Position numbers and translations under genes: made by a program
Assembly: GCA_003021655.1 (NCBI GenBank)
Contig: PXRP01000026.1
Span: 62,001 to 126,000, forward strand
Direction of reading: 5' to 3'
DNA from: Halobacteriales archaeon QS_4_69_31
Lineage (GTDB): Archaea > Halobacteriota > Halobacteria > Halobacteriales > Haloarculaceae
DNA: 64,000 nt
Shown here: positions 10,353 through 57,506 of the stretch, piece by piece
Layout: each line of letters opens with the position of its first letter
Position numbering within the stretch: the stretch's first letter is position 1
Notes under the pieces: model-generated
Told to the model about the DNA's origin: nothing
The model's database searches: none
The model's input: only the letters and a program-made list of their open reading frames with translations

Positions 10353-11600
10353 TCACCCCGCCCTGAACTGCTGGCTTTCGAGTTGGGCCGCGAGCGGCTC
10401 GGGGAGGTACTCGTCCTCGCCGGGGATGATGCGGGGCGTCAGCCAGCCGCCCTCACAGTAGTGTTTGGGGTCGTCGGGACAGGCGCCCTCGACCTCGACC
10501 GGGCCGACGACGTTGTGCAGCAGTTCGTGGACGACGACGTGGCGGCGCGTCCCGGCGTCGGTGCGGGCGGCGACCACGGAGAACGTCCCGCCCACCTCGC
10601 CGTAGCCCACCTTCTCGGACTGGAACTCGGCGAGCAGGACCTGGTGGTAGACGCCGGCGCGGGGTCCGAGCCGGGACTCGTAGTAGCTGTCTTTCAGCGC
10701 CCAGAAGTTGTCGCCGGTGAACGTCACCGACTCGTTGATCCCCCCACTGTCGACGTGGAGGGCGATCCCGGTCGTCCCGTCGGGGTTCTCGACGGGCATC
10801 TCGGCGAAAGTCGTCCGGAGTCTCTCGTAGAACCCTTCCTCGGGCGCGGCGACGCCCTCGGCGCGGTCGAGCTGGACGTACAGGTCCGCCGACAGCGGGT
10901 CACTTTCCGGGAGCGGGGCCCCCGCGGGCGTCTCGTCGCTGACCTCCCACCCGTCGCGGAGGCCGTCACCGTCGGTGTCGGGGTCGGTCGGGTCCGTCCC
11001 CGCGTCGAGTTCCTGGCCGTCAGTGAGGCTGTCGTCGTCCGTGTCGCCCCGTAGCGGGTCGGTCTCCAGGTCGAGTTCCCGCGTGTCATTGAGACCGTCC
11101 GCGTCGGCGTCGTGGTCGGCCGGACTGATCCCGAGTTCGACCGCCCGTCCGTCGCTGATACCGTCGCCGTCGGTGTCGGGGTCGGTGGGGTCCGCGTCCA
11201 GCGCGAGTTCCCGCTCGTCGTCGAGGCCGTCGCCGTCGGTGTCGGCGACGAACGGGTCGGTCCCGGTCGTGTTCTCCTCGGCGTCCGCGAGGCCGTCGCC
11301 GTCGCTGTCGGTCCCGTTCACGACGCCGGCCACGGAGGCGTTCCCGCCACCCAGCGCCGCGTCCGACGCCACCGAGCGGAGGCCGGAGCCACCGACCGGT
11401 CTGTCGTCGGTCCCACCGTCGTCGGCCGCCGATTCGAGGTCGGTGACCAGCGTCACGCCGCTGGGCTCGGCCGGCCCGGACGTGCCCGACTCGGACGGTG
11501 TGGCGGCGGAGCTATCGACGGCGGGTGCCCCGAACGCACCGGCGCCCGTAACGAGGAGGAGACACGCCACGAAGACGGCGAAACCCCGTCGCACACACAC
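10353..11600 (-). CDS. secreted protein with thrombospondin-3-type calcium repeats and a HELLH metal motif
   Basis: About 415 residues. A hydrophobic signal peptide ([20 protein letters not shown]) is followed by a Ser/Pro-rich region. Next come roughly five DxDGDGLxD repeats (about residues 95-235) of the TSP3/EF-hand-like calcium-binding kind. The C-terminal domain of about 170 residues contains [15 protein letters not shown], an HExxH-like zinc site as in metallopeptidases, and two possible disulfides around CPDDPKHYC. It is probably an extracellular metallopeptidase or inactive relative stabilised by calcium. The start is unclear: the open frame begins at TTG 11621, but GTG codons at 11600 or 11594 leave a compact signal peptide. 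Likely exported by Sec. Confidence 0.72.
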
Positions 11601-12431: not shown

Positions 12432-13889
12432 ATGAGCGACGAGTTCGAGGACGTGGTCGCGCGGGTCCGCGAGCGGGTGACGCCCGACTCCGAGAAGCGG
12501 GCGCGCCTCGCGGCGGCCGTCGAGACGCTCCGCGAGCGGACCGAGCGGGCCGTCGCGGACCTCCCGGTCGCGGACGCGTCGGTCGTCCACGTCGGGTCGA
12601 CGGCCCGGGACACCTGGCTCGCCGGCGACCGCGACATCGACCTGTTCGTGCGGTTCCCGCCGGACCTGAGCCGCGAGGACCTGGAGCGGTACGGCCTCGA
12701 AGTCGGCCACGCGGTGCTCCCCGAGGGGCGCGACGAGTACGCCGAACACCCCTACGTCCACGGCGAGTACGACGGGTTCGACGTGGACCTGGTGCCCTGT
12801 TACGACGTCGCCGACGCCACGGCGGTCCAGTCGGCCGTCGACCGGACGCCCTTCCACACGCGGTATCTCGCCGACCGCATCGACGACGACCTGGCCGGCG
12901 AGGTCCGCGCCACGAAGGCCTTTCTCACCGGGGTCGGCGTCTACGGGAGCGACCTGCGGACCCGTGGGTTCTCGGGCTACCTGACGGAGTTGCTCGTCGT
13001 CGAGTACGGCGGCGTCCGGGCGTTCGTGGAGGCGGCCGCCGACTGGCACCCGCCGGTCGTCCTCGACCCCGCGGACCACGCCGCCCGCTCGTTCGAGGAG
13101 CCGCTGGTCGTCGTCGATCCCACGGACCCCGAGCGCAACGTCGCCGCCGTCTGTGCGCCCGGGAGCGTCGCGCGCCTCCAGCATTACGCCCGCGACCTGC
13201 TCGCCGACCCCCGCGAGTCGCTGTTCGTCCCCGACGAGCCCGACCCACTCTCGCCCGCCGCGGTCCGCGAGCACGTCGCCGCTCGCGGGACGACGCCGGT
13301 CGCCGTCCGCTTCGACGCACCCGACGTCGTCGACGACCAGCTCTACCCGCAGCTGGAGAAGTCCCGGGCGGGGCTGGTCGACGAACTCGACCGCCGCGGG
13401 TTCGACGTCCTCCGTTCGACCGCGTTCGCTGACGGGACGGCCGTCCTGTTCGCCGAACTCGAAGTCGCCCGACGACCCGCGGTCGAACGCCACGAGGGGC
13501 CGCCTGTCCACGTCCGCGACCACGCCGAGGGGTTCTACGAGACCTACGACGCGGACGACCCCGACGGCGGGGCGGGCGAGGGAGGCGCGGCGGACGAATC
13601 CGGCGATAGAGACGGGGACGGCGAAGACGGGGCCGGCCACGAGGATGGGGCAGGCGAGCGGGTCTACGGCCCGTTCGTCGACGGCGAGCGGTACGTGGTT
13701 GAGCGCGAGCGAGCGTTCGCGACGGCAGAGGGCTTCCTGGCGAGCGACGCGTTGCTCAACGTGGCGCTGGGCGCGCGCGTCGAGGAGGCGCTGGCGGCCG
13801 ACTACGAGGTGCTCGTCGGCGACGAAGTCGCGACGCTGGCCGACGCGTTCGGGACGGAACTGGCGGCGTACTTCGACCCGTGGCCGTAG
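12432..13889 (+). CDS. cca: archaeal CCA-adding tRNA nucleotidyltransferase
   Basis: Adds or repairs the 3' CCA of tRNAs without a template (class I archaeal enzyme). Both tRNA genes in this window lack an encoded CCA, so they need this activity. The 485-residue protein carries the polymerase-beta-type site GSTARDTWLAGDRDIDLF with the DxD pair near residue 68 and a later DVDLVPCY aspartate. Central and tail domains follow (RYLADRIDDDLAGEVRATKAFLTGVGVYGS). The start is ATG 12432. Residues about 372-411 are an Asp/Gly/Glu-rich insert (13555-13665) near the end of the tail domain that the family lacks. The rest is collinear. Confidence 0.95.
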   Translation: MSDEFEDVVARVRERVTPDSEKRARLAAAVETLRERTERAVADLPVADASVVHVGSTARDTWLAGDRDIDLFVRFPPDLSREDLERYGLEVGHAVLPEGRDEYAEHPYVHGEYDGFDVDLVPCYDVADATAVQSAVDRTPFHTRYLADRIDDDLAGEVRATKAFLTGVGVYGSDLRTRGFSGYLTELLVVEYGGVRAFVEAAADWHPPVVLDPADHAARSFEEPLVVVDPTDPERNVAAVCAPGSVARLQHYARDLLADPRESLFVPDEPDPLSPAAVREHVAARGTTPVAVRFDAPDVVDDQLYPQLEKSRAGLVDELDRRGFDVLRSTAFADGTAVLFAELEVARRPAVERHEGPPVHVRDHAEGFYETYDADDPDGGAGEGGAADESGDRDGDGEDGAGHEDGAGERVYGPFVDGERYVVERERAFATAEGFLASDALLNVALGARVEEALAADYEVLVGDEVATLADAFGTELAAYFDPWP

Positions 13890-30478: not shown

Positions 30479-30685
30479 TCGCCGGCCGACGCGCCGGCCT
30501 GTCCGGTGTCAGTCGCCGATCGACACACCAGCTCTGTCCCGGGTCGTCGGCCGACGTGCCGGCACTGTCCCGGACCGCCGGCCGATTTCGTGCCGGTGTC
30601 AGTCGTCGGCCGACGTGCCGGCACTGTCCCGGACCGCCGGCCGATTTCGTGCCGGTGTCAGTCGCCGGCCGATTTCATGCCGGTG
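30479..30685. repeat. 59-bp tandem repeat array reaching into the aldo/keto reductase 3' end
   Basis: Two identical 59-base copies (30543-30601 and 30602-30660) begin GTCGTCGGCCGACGTGCC. A shortened copy at 30661-30685 and degenerate copies back to about 30479 extend the array. The shortened copy is the coding 3' end of the reductase (minus-strand GMKSAGD-stop), so the array seems to have grown outward from the gene end. In 30209-30478 I see a related shorter direct repeat around GAGGTGAAACG (about 30347 and 30400) but no gene. Confidence 0.85.
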
Positions 30686-50052: not shown

Positions 50053-51111
50053 TCAGGCGGTCCCGGTGTCGAACTCGCCGAGTTCGGCCAGCAGGTGTGC
50101 GACGTGGAGGCGGTCGTTGGTCCCCTCGTGGAGGTCGAGGTCGACCTCGCCGGCCAGGCGGTGGAGGCGCGCGAGGTCGGTCCCGGAGTACCGCGAGCGC
50201 GCGACCGTCAGCACGTCATCGAGGACCTCGCCGCCGCTGTGACCCTCGTCGACGAGCAACTCGTCGAGCGTCGAGCGGGCGTCGGTGAACTCGCCGGCCT
50301 CGGCGGCGGTTATCATCTCGCCGACGCGCTCGTCGGTGCCCAGCGACCCGAGCACCTCGTAGGCGGTCTGCATGGTGATCTCGCCCTCCTGTTCGGCGGT
50401 GGTCTGGGCGCCCAGCACCGCCGCCCGGAGGTCCCCGTCCGCGTACCCGGCGACGTACTCGATGCCCTCGTCGTCGTGGGCGACGCCCTCGGCGTCGACG
50501 ATCGATTCGAGGACGGCGACGGTCTCCTCGTGGGTCGGCGCGCGCACCGGGACGGGGAAACACCGCGAGCGGACCGGCGGGATCAGCGCCGAGGGCTGGC
50601 GCGTCGCGATGACGAACTGCGTGGCCTCGTAGTACTGTTCCATCACGCGCCGGAGCGCCTGCTGGAAGTCCCCGCGGACGCCCTCGGCGTTGTCCAGCAG
50701 AACCGTCTTATGACTCCCCGAGACGGGCGCGTAGCTCGCCGACTCCTTGAGGACGTGGTTGATGAGGTCGGCCTTCGAGGACTCGCGCCGCCGCTTCGCG
50801 TCGATGAACCGCTCGAACCGCGGGTCCGCGGCGAGCTCTTTCTTCGTCATGTCGAAGAAGTCCGCCACGTTGATCTCGACCAGGTCGGCGTCGGGAGTGG
50901 CGTGGAGTTCGTCGGCCAGCGCCCGGACAGCGGCGGTCTTGCCGGCGCCGGGCGGCCCGTGGACCAGCAGGTTCATCGGCTCCTCGACGACGCTCTGTAA
51001 CTGCTCGCGCACCGACTGCTGGGGGAGGTCCGCCAGCGACGGCGCGTGGCGTTCCGTCCACAGCGGCCCTTCGAGGGTCCCGCCCGGCCCGTCCGCGGAG
51101 TCGTCGGCCAT
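50053..51111 (-). CDS. rfcC: replication factor C small subunit (clamp-loader ATPase)
   Basis: A 352-residue AAA+ clamp-loader subunit that helps place PCNA on DNA. LWTERHAPSLADLPQQ opens the RFC box; Walker A is VHGPPGAGKTAAVRAL, Walker B-like TVLLDNAEGVRGDFQQALRRVME, and the SRC sensor appears as VRSRCFPVPV. Walker B reads DNAE instead of DEAD/DEAH, as expected for the divergent second small subunit of haloarchaea. Start MADDSADGPGG (ATG 51109-51111). Gap 51112-51327 contains no recognised feature. Confidence 0.9.
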   Translation of the reverse strand: MADDSADGPGGTLEGPLWTERHAPSLADLPQQSVREQLQSVVEEPMNLLVHGPPGAGKTAAVRALADELHATPDADLVEINVADFFDMTKKELAADPRFERFIDAKRRRESSKADLINHVLKESASYAPVSGSHKTVLLDNAEGVRGDFQQALRRVMEQYYEATQFVIATRQPSALIPPVRSRCFPVPVRAPTHEETVAVLESIVDAEGVAHDDEGIEYVAGYADGDLRAAVLGAQTTAEQEGEITMQTAYEVLGSLGTDERVGEMITAAEAGEFTDARSTLDELLVDEGHSGGEVLDDVLTVARSRYSGTDLARLHRLAGEVDLDLHEGTNDRLHVAHLLAELGEFDTGTA

Positions 51112-51327
51112 CGTGTTCGGTCGTCGATTGGCGACCGGGCGGTAAGTATCCATCTGTCCGATGCGAGGCCGACCGAAGGGAGGCCTCGAAGGAAGCGAGC
51201 GGGTGGCCGCTCCGGAGAGCACTTGCCGCCGGCGGGCAACGTCCCGGCGACGATCGACGGGAACCCTGAACCGGTCACACCGGGCTGGCAGCGGCCGTTG
51301 CATCTGACCTGCGGCCGGCGGGCGGTC

Positions 51328-51407
51328 ATACTGCCGGCTGTAAGTCTGTAAAGAATTTCGCAACCCCGGAATGGCGAATATCTTCACGAAGTTACAGCCG
51401 GCAGTAT
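51328..51407. repeat. 80-bp palindromic element, copy 1
   Basis: Terminal arms ATACTGCCGGCTGTAA (51328-51343) and its exact reverse complement (51392-51407) enclose a second, partly mismatched stem TTCGC...GCGAA, so the element folds into one long hairpin. A second copy 74-75 of 80 bases identical lies at 54182-54261. The right edge supplies the first base of the minus-strand stop codon of the transducer gene (TGA at 51407-51409). It could be a terminator, a mobile palindrome (REP/MITE-like) or both. Confidence 0.93.
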
Positions 51408-53980
51408 CAGGACTGGGAGTTCCAGTCGAACAGCTCGGCTTCGACCTCGTTGTTGACCTTGCGGACCTGGGCTTCGACGTCGCCGTCGGCGGTCATGTCG
51501 GCCCGGCCGTGCTCGATGAGAGACCGGACCTCGGGGAACGGGCCCATCTGTGCGCCGTTGGTCGCGGGCGTGTCGGAAGACTCCTGGAACTGGTTGAACG
51601 CCGTGGCGTAGTGGGGGTTCTCGGCGAACCAGTCGTCACGTTCGAGCACGTCGACCGCGCCCTCACAGACCGGGAAGTAGCCGGTCTCGCGGTGCCAGCG
51701 GGCCTGCTGTTCGGGTTCGAGCAGCCACGTCAGGAACTCGCCGACCGCCGACTCGACGGCGGGGTCGAGGCCGTCCCCGACCCAGAGGGAGGCCCCGCCG
51801 ACGAGGACGCCGTTCCTGTCGTCCAGGACGGGGAGGTAGCCGGTCGCAAGGTCGAAGTCGGCGCCGGACTCGATGCCGCCCAGCGACGACGTCGACCCGA
51901 TGAGCATCGCCGCGCGCTCGTCGTGGAAGGCCTTTTTCGCCTTCCCGCGGGCCTTGATGCCGGTGTTGTGGTAGAGGTTGTCGGTCTCCATGCCGGTCCA
52001 CCACTCGAACAGGTCGACGCCGAACTCACTGTCGAGGTAGGCCTCGGTGGGCGTCCCGGCCCGGCCGTTCTGCTGGTCGACGAGCTCCTGGCCCGCCTCG
52101 GCGAACCACTGTTCGACGAACCACGAGTAGTTGGCAAAGGTGATCCCGTAGTTACAGACCCCCGCGTCGACGAGACGCCGGCTGGCCTCGCGCACCTCGG
52201 CGAACGTCGCGGGCGGGTCGTCCGGGTCGAGACCGGCGGCCGCGAACGCGTCGCGGTTGAGACAGAGGATCGGGTTCGAGGAGTTGAACGGCACCGACTG
52301 GAGCATCCCGTCGACGGTGTAGTAATCGGAGACGGAGTCGATGAGCGACCTGCGGGTCGCGGTCGGGAGGAGCGTCTCGGCGGGCGTGAACGCGCCGATC
52401 GTCCGGGCTTTCATGCCCCCGATCTCGTTGATCTGGGCGATGGCGGGCATCTCGTCGGTTCCGGCCGCGGCCATGACCTCGTCGAGGACGCCGTCGTAGC
52501 TCCCCATCGACGACAGCCGGAAGTGGACGCCGCCGTACTCGTCTTCGAACTCGTGTGCGAGGTCGTGTAGCAGGAGCGACTTGGCCCCGCCCATCGCGTG
52601 CCAGAAGTCGACGACGGTGTCGCTTTTCGCGACGGTGCGTTGCTGGCGCTCGCCGGTCGTGAACTGCGCGGAGGCCGTCCCGAGGCGGTCGGCCTGCTCG
52701 GAGATCGCCGCCACCTCCCGGGAGACGTCGGTGAGCGACTCGGTCTGGCTCTGGGCGGCGTCGGCCACGGTCTCGGCCTCGACGGTGGTCTCCTCGCTCA
52801 CCGCGCTGACCTCGTCGACCATCGAGACGACCGACTGGGTGGTCTGTGCCTGCTCGTCGACCGCGTCGTCGACCTCCTGGATGTTGACGTTGACCTCCTC
52901 GACCCGGTCGACGACGTCGTCCAGGTGGTCGATGGCCGTCTCGACCGCCTCGGCCGCCTCGGACACCACCGTCTGGGTCTCGTGCATGTCCTCGACGGTG
53001 GTGTCGGTCTGCTCGCGGACCTCGGCGACGGTGGATTTGATCTCGTTCGTCGCTCCCTTTGTCTCGGTCGCCAGGTTCTTGACCTCCTCGGCGACGACCG
53101 CGAACCCGCTGCCCGCCTCGCCCGCCCGCGCCGCCTCGATGTTGGCGTTCAGCGCGAGCATGTTCGTGTCGTCCGCGACCTCGGTGATGAACTCCGTGAT
53201 CTCCTCGATGTCGCCCATCAACTCGCTCAGCCGCTCGACCTGGTCGACCATCTCCGCGGTCTGTTCCTCCATCGATTCGAGGTCGTCGATGGCCTCGCTC
53301 GCCGCCTCCTGGGCGGCGTCCCCGCGGACGACCGACTCGTCGGTCGTCTGGGCCACCTCGGTCGCCGAGGCCGCTACCTCCTGGATCGTCGCGGAGATCG
53401 ACCGCATCTCGTCGCCGACCCTGTCGAGGTGCCCGTTTTGCTCGCTGGCCCCCTCGGCGATCTCGCCGACGGACTCGCTGACCCGCTCGCTCTCGTCCTC
53501 GACGGATTCGATCTCGTCGGTCACCTCGCTCGTCGACTCGTCGACCGCCGTGCTGAACTCGTCGACCTGCTTGAGGGTCGCGTTCCACTCGTCGAGCATC
53601 CGATTGTAACAGGAGACGAACTCGACGACCGCGTCGACGTCGGAGTTGACGTCCGCCCGCCGGGTCAGGTCCCCCGCCGCGTTGGCCTCGACGACCCCCT
53701 GGAGTTCGGCCAGCGACCCCTCCAGGTCGTACAGCCGGTGTTTCTGGTCGGCGACTGTCTCCTCTAACCCTCCGACTCGCTCCCTGGCGCGGTCCCGCTC
53801 GTTTTGCACTTCTCTGAACCTGGCCCGGAGCTCCGACTCCGGCAGGTCCGCCAGGTCCGACTCCGACGCCTCCGCCGGGTCCCCGAGAGACCCCGCGGGT
53901 TCGGCCCCGCTCGTTCCGCCATCCGCGGCCAGATCGCGGCTCGATTTGTGTCTATCGTCTGTCCGATCCCTCATCATCAT
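51407..53980 (-). CDS. soluble methyl-accepting transducer fused to a UgpB-like solute-binding domain
   Basis: An 857-residue protein with no signal peptide and no membrane helix. Order: acidic leader and coiled coil (1-95), HAMP-like segment [29 protein letters not shown] (about 98-130), long helical signalling domain (140-440) with hairpin tip [45 protein letters not shown]. From about 452 comes a complete family-1 solute-binding domain: [59 protein letters not shown] and [10 protein letters not shown], closest to UgpB. The binding domain is normally secreted; here it must be cytoplasmic. Start is one of three tandem ATGs. Probably feeds CheA with an internal metabolite signal. Confidence 0.9.
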
Positions 53981-54181
53981 CCGGTATCGACTCTACAGCT
54001 ACTAATAGGCTAGACCGCAATTATCACTCCTGACATGCCGGGCCGCCCCTGTCAGTCCGGACGTACTGACTGCTGCCCGCCCCGGTGCGCCGGACGCGGC
54101 GTTCGATCCGGGGGATGGACGCGGCCGTCCGTCCCGACGCACTGGCCGCGGCCGTTCGGTCCGGGGGACGGCCTGTTCGTC

Positions 54182-54261
54182 ATACTGCCGGCTGTAAGTC
54201 TGTAAAGAAGTTCGCCACCTCGGGGTGGCGAATATCTTCACGAAGTTACAGCCGACAGTAT
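54182..54261. repeat. 80-bp palindromic element, copy 2
   Basis: Arms ATACTGCCGGCTGTAA (54182-54197) and TTACAGCCGACAGTAT (54246-54261, one change). The inner stem TTCGCCACC-TCGG-GGTGGCGAA is perfect here, unlike copy 1. The right edge again provides the first base of a minus-strand TGA stop (54261-54263), that of the HTH_10 regulator. Between it and the transducer start (53981-54181) I see only a short GTCAGT/ACTGAC inverted repeat and no gene. Confidence 0.93.
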
Positions 54262-57200
54262 CAGTCCCGGCCGCCGGCGTGGGGGTCGAACAGTTCCTCG
54301 AAGACTTTGCGCTGTGCGGCCCGGAGGTGCTGGTGGAAGGTGGGCCGGGAGATGTCCATCGACTCCGCGAGGTCGTCGCCGTCGGCCTCGCGGGGCCACT
54401 CGAAAAAGCCCCCGAGGTGGGCGGTCCGGACGGCGGTCTCCTGGCGGTCGGTGAACCGGTCGAAGACGGACTCGCGGAACGCCTGGCGGGTGTCGACCGG
54501 CCGCTCGTGTTCGTGGTAGCCCACGAGTTCGGTCCCCTCGTAGCGGTCGGCCACGAGGTCGAACACCTCGCGGGCCTCGGCCTCGTAGGGGAGTTCGAGC
54601 GTGTAGCGGACGACGCCCTCCTCGGCGGTGACCGCCTGCGTGACGGCGCCGTGGTCGGCCAGCAATTCGACGGGCGAGTCGGTCACCGTCGCCTCGAACA
54701 GCACCTCGCCGTCGTGGTCGGTGATGACCGTCGCCGCCGTGACCTGGTCGTCGCCGTCGAGGAACGCCCGGACGGTGTCGGCGTCGGTACCCGTCGCCGT
54801 GATGTACAGCCGGAGGCTCCCGTCGGCCTCGTGGACCGAGCCGGTGAGTTCGACGGTCGCGCCGGTCGCCGCCGAGAGGCGCCCGAACAGCAGGTCGTCG
54901 TCACGGACCGTACACTCCAGTTCGACGACGCGGTCGGCCGCGAGGATGCGCCCGCTCTCGATGGCGTTGATGGCGTTGGCGACCGCCCGGCCCAGCGCCC
55001 CGAGGACGACCTGTTCGCGCTCGGCGACCGCGTCGGATTCGCCCGCGTACACCATCAGGACGCCGTAGCTGGCGTCCCTGTAGACCAGCGGGACGGCGAC
55101 GACCGACCCCAGTCCCGCGTCGGCGGCCGCCGCGTGGACCGCCCCCGGCACCTCCCCGGGGTCGGTCACCACGCACAGTTGCTCCTCGTCGAGCGCGCGC
55201 ACGGCGGGGTCGCCGTCCTCGCGGGCCCGGACCCGGTCGACCGCGTGGTCAGCGACCGCGTCGGCGAGGGCGGGGACCTCACCCGCCCAGGCGGTCACGT
55301 CGAGGCGCTCGGCGGCCACGTCCGGGCGGGCGATCCACGCGAACTCGTAGGGGTCGGTGGCGACGAGCTGGTCGACGACCCCGCGTTCGAGTTCCTCGCG
55401 GGTCCCGCTCTGGACCAGCACCTCGACGGTGTTCTCGATGAGGCCGTTGATCCGGTCGACGAGCGTGTCGACGCGCTCGCGCGTCTCGCGGGTCTCCTGT
55501 TCGCGCTTGGCGCGGTTGGCCGCCGCCGCGCCCGTCGTCGCCAGCAACTCGATGGCGCGCCGGTCGACGTCGGAGAAGGCGTCGGGCTCGGTCGCGCCGA
55601 TGCTGATCGTCCCGTGGACGCCCATCGGCAGGTGGATCGCCGACTCGATGACGGCCCGCTCGCGGCCGTCGTCGAGCGCCGCCGTGTCCGCGACGACGAC
55701 GGGCTCGCCGTCGATGAACGCCTCGCCGGGGCCGCCCTCGTCGATCCCGTAGGTCGGGACGGTCCCGACGCGCTCCTCGACCGCGTCGGTCCAGCCGGCC
55801 GGGACGAGCTGTTCGTCCTCGCGGTCGAACAGGCGGACGACGCTCAACTCGAAGCCCAGCACCTCCTCGATGGCGCGGGCGACCAGCCCGGCGACCTCCT
55901 CGCGGTCGCGCGCCTGCATGAACGACCGCGAGGACTCGACCAGCTCCGAGAGCATCTCGCGGTGGGCCTGCTGTTCGGTGACGTCCCGGACGACGCCGAC
56001 GACGCCCCGCACCTCCCCGCCGGGGCCGTCCAGCCGCGTCATGCTGTCCTCGCAGGGGACCGGCCGGCCCCGCCGGCGCTGGACCCGCGACTCGACCGCG
56101 CGCTCGCTGGCCGCCCCCGAGAACAGCGCCTCCAGGGCCGCCGCCGTCTCCTCGTCGTCCCTGACGAACGAGAGGTGTTCGCCCAGCAACGTCTCGGCGT
56201 CGTAGCCGGTCAGCTCCGCCATCGCCGGGTTGACGTACTGGAACCGCCCCCCGGTGTCGACCTCGTAGACGCCGTCCTCGACCGAACTGACGATAGTCTC
56301 TAAGCGTTCGAGTTCCTCCTCGCGGTCGCGGCGCTCCAGTTCGTAGCTCACCCACTCGACGAGCAACTCGATGAACGTCGTCTCGCTGTCGGTGAACGGC
56401 CGGTCGCGCCCCTCGGTGTCGGCGAAACAGAGCGTCCCGTACCGCCGGTCGCCGACGCGTAACGTCCCGCCGAGGTAACACTCCAGCCCGAACTCCTCGT
56501 GGGCGGGGTCGTCGGCCCACCCCTGGTCGCTCGCGCGCTCGACCGCGAGCACGCCGTCGGCCTCGATGGTCCGCCGACAGTAGGTCATCGACAGCGGCAC
56601 CGTCGTCCCCTCGGTGAGCGCCCCGGCCGCGTCGTCGGCCGCGACGACGGTCTGTTTGTCGCCGTCGATCCGCGTCAGGTACGCCGCCGGCAGGTCCAGG
56701 CGCTCCCGGCCCACCGCGAGCGCGCGCCCCAGCTTCTCGTCGAAGCTCAGCGTCCGGTCGGAGGCCAGCCGCTGGAGCGCGCGCAACGCCCGCTCGTTGT
56801 GCTCGCGCTCGTCGCTGGCCCGCCGCTCGGCGGTGACGTCCTGCGCGATGCCGACGACGCCCGCCACCTCGCCGTCGGGTCTGAACGGGTACATCGTCGT
56901 CCGGACGACCTGCCGGTCGTCCCCGCTGCCGACGACGCGCTCGACCGTCCGCGAGGACCCCGTCTCCATGACCACCCGGTCGTCGCTCCGGACCGCCGCT
57001 GCGACCTCCGGGTCGAACACCTCCTCGTCGGTCTTCCCGACGACCCGCTCGCGGTCGACGCCGAACAGCGCCGCCGCCGCGTCGTTGACGTACTCGTAGC
57101 CCCCGTCGCTTCCCTTCAGGAAAACCGGCTCGTCGAGGTGGTCGACGACCGTCCCGAACGAGTACTCGACCGCCCGGCCGTCGCCCGTGACCGACTGCCC

Positions 57201-57392
57201 GCCGTCCCCGACCGGCCGTCCGCCGTCCGTGACCGGCCGTCCGCCGTCCGTGACCGGTCGTCTGTCCCCCGGGACCCGGCGGTGGTCCCGCGGGCTGTCG
57301 CCCTCGTCGCCGGACGTGACGGTTCGTTCGCGCACGTGTCGCCCCCGCGGGTGGCCGCCCTCCCCCGGGGCGACCGACCGTCTCCCTTCCAT
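54261..57392 (-). CDS. Bat-type multidomain regulator (PAS-GAF-PAS-GAF-GAF-HTH_10)
   Basis: A 1043-residue cytoplasmic sensor-regulator. Residues about 80-195 are a PAS domain (VVDHLDEPVFLKGSDGGYEYVN), 200-365 GAF, 370-490 PAS (VSSVEDGVYEVDTGGRFQYVN), 495-655 and 680-830 GAF. A BOAT-like region follows, then the bacterio-opsin-activator HTH_10, LTDRQ-type FTDRQETAVRTAHLGGFFEWPREADGDDLAESMDISRPTFHQHLRAAQRKVF. Start ATG 57390-57392 is set by a TTTAAG box about 28 bases upstream. The leader contains a 21-bp repeat (RPVTDGG units, about 57210-57265). No kinase or receiver: ligand or redox sensing is linked directly to transcription. Confidence 0.9.
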   Translation of the reverse strand: MEGRRSVAPGEGGHPRGRHVRERTVTSGDEGDSPRDHRRVPGDRRPVTDGGRPVTDGGRPVGDGGQSVTGDGRAVEYSFGTVVDHLDEPVFLKGSDGGYEYVNDAAAALFGVDRERVVGKTDEEVFDPEVAAAVRSDDRVVMETGSSRTVERVVGSGDDRQVVRTTMYPFRPDGEVAGVVGIAQDVTAERRASDEREHNERALRALQRLASDRTLSFDEKLGRALAVGRERLDLPAAYLTRIDGDKQTVVAADDAAGALTEGTTVPLSMTYCRRTIEADGVLAVERASDQGWADDPAHEEFGLECYLGGTLRVGDRRYGTLCFADTEGRDRPFTDSETTFIELLVEWVSYELERRDREEELERLETIVSSVEDGVYEVDTGGRFQYVNPAMAELTGYDAETLLGEHLSFVRDDEETAAALEALFSGAASERAVESRVQRRRGRPVPCEDSMTRLDGPGGEVRGVVGVVRDVTEQQAHREMLSELVESSRSFMQARDREEVAGLVARAIEEVLGFELSVVRLFDREDEQLVPAGWTDAVEERVGTVPTYGIDEGGPGEAFIDGEPVVVADTAALDDGRERAVIESAIHLPMGVHGTISIGATEPDAFSDVDRRAIELLATTGAAAANRAKREQETRETRERVDTLVDRINGLIENTVEVLVQSGTREELERGVVDQLVATDPYEFAWIARPDVAAERLDVTAWAGEVPALADAVADHAVDRVRAREDGDPAVRALDEEQLCVVTDPGEVPGAVHAAAADAGLGSVVAVPLVYRDASYGVLMVYAGESDAVAEREQVVLGALGRAVANAINAIESGRILAADRVVELECTVRDDDLLFGRLSAATGATVELTGSVHEADGSLRLYITATGTDADTVRAFLDGDDQVTAATVITDHDGEVLFEATVTDSPVELLADHGAVTQAVTAEEGVVRYTLELPYEAEAREVFDLVADRYEGTELVGYHEHERPVDTRQAFRESVFDRFTDRQETAVRTAHLGGFFEWPREADGDDLAESMDISRPTFHQHLRAAQRKVFEELFDPHAGGRD

Positions 57393-57506
57393 TGGACCGG
57401 CGTTGCGGCCGGAGGGGCTTAAACCCAACACCAGGCGTCCGCCCGACACCCCGTCGCCGGGGTACGGACCCGCCTACTGATGTGTCCGGGCGACGTGACA
57501 GCCAGT

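Follow-up and report, generated by a model that had tools for sequence, protein, structure and literature searches.

A mobile 78-bp palindrome of haloarchaea duplicates a TNA target and lies in excess on stop codons

The window analysed here, a 64,000-nt stretch of contig PXRP01000026.1 from Halobacteriales archaeon QS_4_69_31, holds two minus-strand genes that each end at the border of a short palindrome (Table 1). One encodes a transducer in which an MCPsignal domain is fused to a C-terminal SBP_bac_8 domain, and the other a PAS/GAF/BAT/HTH_10 regulator. A preliminary description of this DNA had reported two copies of an 80-bp palindrome with 16-base arms and an inner stem, differing at six positions. 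Both copies, their differences (6 of 78 positions) and the inner stem were confirmed, and the arms are near-perfect over 15-16 bases. The palindromes lie where that description placed them, but their borders need adjusting: the element proper is 78 bp long, with the outer A and T belonging to a TCA triplet. This TCA occurs on both sides of each copy as a 3-bp target-site duplication (TSD) that had been missed earlier, and the complement of the right-hand triplet is the TGA of the transducer gene at copy 1 and of the regulator gene at copy 2, in line with the report that both genes end at an element border.

Table 1. Coordinates of the two palindromic elements, their target-site duplications and the genes that they adjoin in the window
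Feature	Position	Strand	Remarks
Left TSD (TCA) of copy 1	51326-51328	.	TNA duplications in 171/206 copies
Copy 1, 78-bp palindromic element	51329-51406	+	arms TACTGCCGGCTGTAA / TTACAGCCGGCAGTA
Right TSD of copy 1, TGA stop codon of transducer gene	51407-51409	-	
Transducer, 857 aa, MCPsignal fused to C-terminal SBP_bac_8 domain	51407-53980	-	
Left TSD (TCA) of copy 2	54180-54182	.	
Copy 2, 78-bp element	54183-54260	+	one arm mismatch
Right TSD of copy 2, TGA stop codon of BAT/HTH_10 regulator	54261-54263	-	
PAS/GAF/BAT/HTH_10 regulator, 1043 aa from chosen start	54261-57392	-	longest ORF begins at 57449

Four arm matches were observed in the window against 0.09 expected, and identity between the two copies ends at their GTC/CAG flanks. 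Both copies folded much more stably than their dinucleotide shuffles did (z -8.5 to -10.5, with 0 of 200 shuffles as good), giving a hairpin predicted to be very stable on either strand. The transducer gene and both palindromes sit between an RFC-like gene (50053-51111) and the HTH_10 gene (window 50053-57392), and in two related loci inspected by eye (L297, L298) a gene whose start resembles that of the RFC-like gene directly follows the HTH_10 gene. Relatives of the C-terminal part of the transducer were found in nine of 38 other genomes searched. Elsewhere the window contains a perfect 59-bp tandem duplication (30543-30660) and five direct repeats with a 66-bp period (10941-11328).

The genome that the window comes from has four element copies in total, all of them exactly on called stop codons of unrelated genes. 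The affected genes had been described as signalling genes, which does not hold for the remaining two copies, located on the stops of a hydrolase-like gene and of a replication factor C small-subunit-like (rfcS-like) gene, names that were read from the translated sequences. The rfcS-like gene, whose stop codon carries the copy at C42:28604-28683, is probably essential. Of the two copies in a sister genome (G392), one lies on a called stop codon but with unequal flanks TGA/TAA, and the other a few bases past a stop. In HTH_10 relatives that lack the element, the C-terminus (...KVFDELFDPHSGR and ...KVFEELFEQAGRR) falls within a few residues of the one seen here (...KVFEELFDPHAGGRD), and five transducer relatives end at query positions ~395-400, counted as aligned end plus remaining codons, compared with 397 here. 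Since element-free relatives end at about the same residue, both stop codons in the window are the genes' own ends.

The element is spread mainly in one haloarchaeal family. An exact arm was present in 47 of 392 genomes evenly sampled from the order, mostly within the same family and with up to 40 on one strand in one genome, and two exact arms occurred together in 93 stretches when named genomes were scanned. Carriers include Halomicrobium katesii, Haloarcula rara, H. amylolytica, Halapricum hydrolyticum, Halostagnicola and several MAGs. Two loci of strain SHR40 (L115 31-158 and L120 1291-1418) hold variants of 128 bp, lengthened by an additional loop segment and flanked by TNA duplications. 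IMG/VR contained 34 stretches with one exact arm each and none with both, phage records gave no match, and Rfam returned sub-threshold matches only, the best being the mir-627 hairpin at 32.9 bits against 86. Neither the arm sequence nor, in work on haloarchaeal MITEs, palindromes and stop-codon insertion, a description of the element was found in the literature searched, which took in a minority of subscription journals.

Flanking sequences define how the element enters its sites. Identical 3-bp flanks were found for 96 of 104 distinct copies with exact arms, 95 of these being TNA (TGA 37, TCA 36, TAA 13 and TTA 9), and flank identity stopped at 3 bp, never extending to four bases. In a broader set of 206 distinct haloarchaeal copies, for which a total of six arm mismatches was tolerated, 171 had identical TNA on both sides and 35 did not. 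Just outside the triplet a C before and a G after were preferred, giving C|TNA|G, in GC-rich surroundings. Identical TNA flanks with identity ending at 3 bp represent a target-site duplication at C|TNA|G.

An empty site supports the same conclusion. In the LC1Hm plasmid pLC1Hm, an ABC substrate-binding protein gene has a copy on its stop codon (12941-13018), and the same locus on Halomicrobium mukohataei pHmuk01 (L291) is without the element, the annotated coding sequence ending there at a single TGA. The empty site reads ...CAC-TGA-GCGTACTC... and the occupied one ...TTC-TGA-[78 bp]-TGA-GCGTACTC.... Contrary to the earlier suggestion that the palindrome brings its own stop codon, the stop is therefore the target's own, duplicated, as both the empty site and the ends of the element-free relatives attest. 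The 78-bp element (family A) is also nested in seven cases within a sister family (family B, arms TACGGTCGGTTGTAA), four of the seven sharing one TAA in the B arm as their site. The proposal of a mobile palindrome was borne out by the dispersal of the copies, the 3-bp TNA duplications of their targets, the empty site and the nesting. A third sister family (arms TACTGGTGGCTGTAA, mostly ~78 bp; L102 698-775, L174, L175, L239 and L094) showed identical TNA flanks in four of seven candidates, and a family-B copy at L131 4001-4160 holds another palindromic insert, beginning TACTGGTCGACAG, that possibly belongs to a fourth.

Copies were placed relative to genes after removing the element from the sequence and retaining one TSD. 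The codon-based gene caller used for this was trained per genome or group of loci, and on 90 kb of pLC1Hm it found 65 of the 66 annotated stops. The 161 copies placed (206 minus the 35 whose flanks were not identical TNA and 10 lying too close to the edge of a locus) comprised 59 positioned exactly at a stop codon, 95 in other intergenic positions and 7 within called genes; by comparison, 12838 of 18637 control TNA sites were genic. Random placement relative to genes had been named beforehand as evidence against a link with stop codons, and placement proved clearly non-random. That the palindrome inserts into 3' ends, as first proposed, is accordingly true as a bias and not as a rule.

Among non-genic copies, the share on stops was 59 of 154 (38%) against 13.4% expected (p=9e-15) from a target model learned from intergenic insertions only, or 8.3% unweighted. 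Merging orthologous insertions left 157 independent sites, with 56 of 150 on stops, and two cruder gene callers, later replaced by the per-genome models, had given 24 of 86 and 27 of 84 non-genic copies on stops. Density per 100 weighted TNA sites was 7.3 at stops, 3.9 at 1-15 nt downstream, 2.1 at 16-40 nt and 1.5 at 41-100 nt. A logistic fit of element insertions that included flanks, local GC and distances gave an odds ratio of 3.99 for stops (95% 2.54-6.18), 0.95 (0.53-1.55) for 16-100 nt downstream, and 0.81 (0.48-1.2) within 60 bp upstream of starts, where no clear depletion of copies was seen. After correction for flanks and GC, copies therefore lie on stop codons about four times oftener than on other non-genic TNA sites.

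Five of ten copies on the annotated plasmid pLC1Hm lie exactly on an annotated stop, as judged by eye with one of the ten in a stretch without listed genes. Family B had a stop share of 13 of 31, against 10.9% expected from an unweighted control, once the 18 of 51 copies without identical TNA flanks were left out. One glycoside hydrolase stop codon is occupied by family A in LC1Hm and by the same 79-bp family-B-like element in two relatives (G172 and G103), and the C-termini agree. Judged by arm mismatches, stop-located copies were no more diverged than other copies, and their orientation relative to the gene was unbiased (19 vs 15 scorable, with 25 of 59 not scorable).

Selection on the hairpin was addressed with an alignment (A1) of 25 out of 30 diverse copies, five being left out. 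The outer 15 bp were nearly invariant, element positions 16-22 and 27-28 were mostly mispaired, and the inner stem had two-sided changes at 11 of 13 pairs. None of 500 shuffles reached its covariation score, which dropped to roughly one third or less on sliding, a comparison that favours the structure because it was derived from these same sequences. These compensatory changes suggest that the hairpin, as DNA or RNA, is under selection, or else that one arm has been re-copied from the other. No T-run follows the hairpin, the gene-strand sequence there being TGACCGCC and TGACGAAC.

A search for a parent element yielded no autonomous transposon sharing these ends in the genome portions covered. 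Apart from composites and 113-160-bp forms, 1.53 Mb of loci contained no longer element with these arms, and there was none in the portion of G109 that was covered. PF01609 genes do occur in these genomes; among 30 loci examined, from more than 100 matches, none combined fitting ends with a TNA duplication except for an unrelated IS inside a copy, and the loci had other ends and, where visible, mostly longer duplications. The exception, a 1491-bp element at L269 with perfect arms around a PF01609 gene, was rejected as an unrelated IS of ~1403 bp inserted in the hairpin, with 10-bp duplications inside a palindrome copy (L269 1071-2473, in G109). PF13586 and PF13359 gave nothing above cut-off in six copy-rich genomes. 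PF01797 was without a match in G059, a genome in which the pLC1Hm stretch is 100% identical and close copies are numerous, and had at least one match in each of the other six of the seven genomes searched. G059 has seven PF01609 matches and so offers the smallest set of candidate enzymes. Lone arms at L010, L027 and L034 were read as truncated or decayed copies and discarded as candidate parents, as was the one at L038, which has no recognisable second arm; inspection by eye found no transposase among called genes within 1.5 kb at these four loci.

The explanation that accounts best for these results, and which we hold with considerable confidence, is a non-autonomous MITE-like element that inserts at TNA, is moved by a transposase acting in trans, and prefers stop codons, survives better on them, or both. 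The 78-bp element inserts at TNA, preferably C|TNA|G, and duplicates three bases. Any TNA reads as TGA or TAA on one of the two strands, which makes a stop codon an ideal target, and because the duplication leaves one intact in-frame stop, insertion there regenerates the stop and leaves the host protein unchanged. Mobilisation would depend on a putative cut-and-paste (DDE-type) transposase with IS1031/PIF-Harbinger-like target choice, and the excess on stops may reflect site preference at gene ends, better survival there, or a mixture of the two. The hairpin itself, whether DNA or RNA, probably matters to the element, since its inner stem is kept by compensatory changes.

The stop-codon excess could also be purely passive, the product of a TNA target and of selection against genic and regulatory insertions that leaves stops as the only fully neutral sites. 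This is plausible, although we lean against it: genic insertions are indeed nearly absent and stop-located copies no more diverged than others, yet sites 16-100 nt downstream should be about equally neutral and show densities of only 1.5-2.1 and no raised odds ratio, depletion upstream of starts is not clear, and different families occupy the same stop in relatives. The opposite reading, in which tiny archaeal mobile palindromes, including at least one sister family, actively seek stop codons with machinery that recognises gene ends, seems to us rather unlikely. The cue recognised could then be sequence context, the structure of DNA or RNA, or termination itself; this would amount to a safe-site strategy of least harm on landing, after which the element may serve as an mRNA 3' hairpin for its host.

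Retention at gene ends for an RNA hairpin, as a terminator, attenuator or mRNA 3'-end stabiliser module, would suit the stability of the fold on both strands, the compensatory changes and the excess exactly at stop codons. We consider it improbable given the missing T-run, the unbiased orientation, the 95 of 161 placed copies that lie elsewhere between genes, and the mobility evident from the empty site and target duplications; a secondary RNA effect of the hairpin may nevertheless exist. Movement of a REP-like palindrome by a Y1 (RAYT/IS200-type) transposase is more doubtful still. The element is palindromic, structured, extragenic and present in many copies, as such a palindrome would be, but IS200/IS605 enzymes are not known to make a 3-bp target duplication, and G059 is without a PF01797 match despite its many close copies. 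The preliminary description had offered, as its other option, a terminator or attenuator spread with gene duplication. That the element was copied along with genes we regard as almost inconceivable: the two window copies are 2.8 kb apart in similar positions, but the transducer and the HTH_10 regulator differ in domains, copy identity stops at the GTC/CAG flanks without homology beyond, and the other two copies end further unrelated genes. With four unrelated genes, unbiased orientation and no T-run, that option was not upheld.

We conclude that the element is a mobile palindrome with protein-preserving insertion, ordinary in kind (MITE-like) and unusual in its stop-codon preference and in having no visible parent. 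It shows how a mobile element can live at almost no cost in gene-dense genomes, the target duplication restoring the stop that was struck. The roughly four-fold excess on stops, its repetition in a sister family and the stop shared between families in relatives make it a testable question whether insertion is steered or survival alone is at work. If insertion is steered, the enzyme would deserve attention as a tool for appending sequence to gene ends with no change to the protein, and these hairpins would shape the 3' ends of mRNAs from many haloarchaeal genes.

Among known systems the element resembles MITEs: it is short and non-coding, has terminal inverted repeats (15-bp arms in 78 bp) and duplicates its target, as seen in the identical TNA flanks and the empty site. 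Like prokaryotic MITEs it occurs in many copies, mostly between genes; unlike them, its whole 78 bp form one hairpin, it is in excess exactly on stops, and a parent with matching ends was not found in the genome portions covered. In a MITE review searched by term (PMC10969869) no word begins with 'stop'. REP/BIME palindromes with RAYT are likewise extragenic and numerous, and differ in that a target duplication is present here and the Y1 transposase (PF01797) is unmatched in G059. The small mobile repeats (SMR) of Haloquadratum walsbyi are described in PMC3119063 as 80-110 bp long with inverted ends unrelated to known transposons, some having a strong target preference, and as inserting into other palindromic elements. 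SMR make no target duplication, in contrast to the 3-bp TNA duplication here, a distinction drawn from their published description.

In target choice the nearest counterparts are the bacterial IS1031 subgroup of the IS5 family, with a TNA target and a 3-bp duplication (PMC12016507), and the eukaryotic NuwaII of the PHIS superfamily, with a C|TNA|G target (PMC4482050). The terminal repeats are unlike those given in PMC12016507 (ISLrh, GAACCTGTC...), and no PF01609, PF13586 or PF13359 gene for an IS5/PHIS-type DDE transposase was linked to the ends among the loci and genomes examined. With its 3-bp TNA duplication and C|TNA|G preference, the 78-bp element nevertheless has the target characteristics that these papers ascribe to IS1031 and NuwaII.
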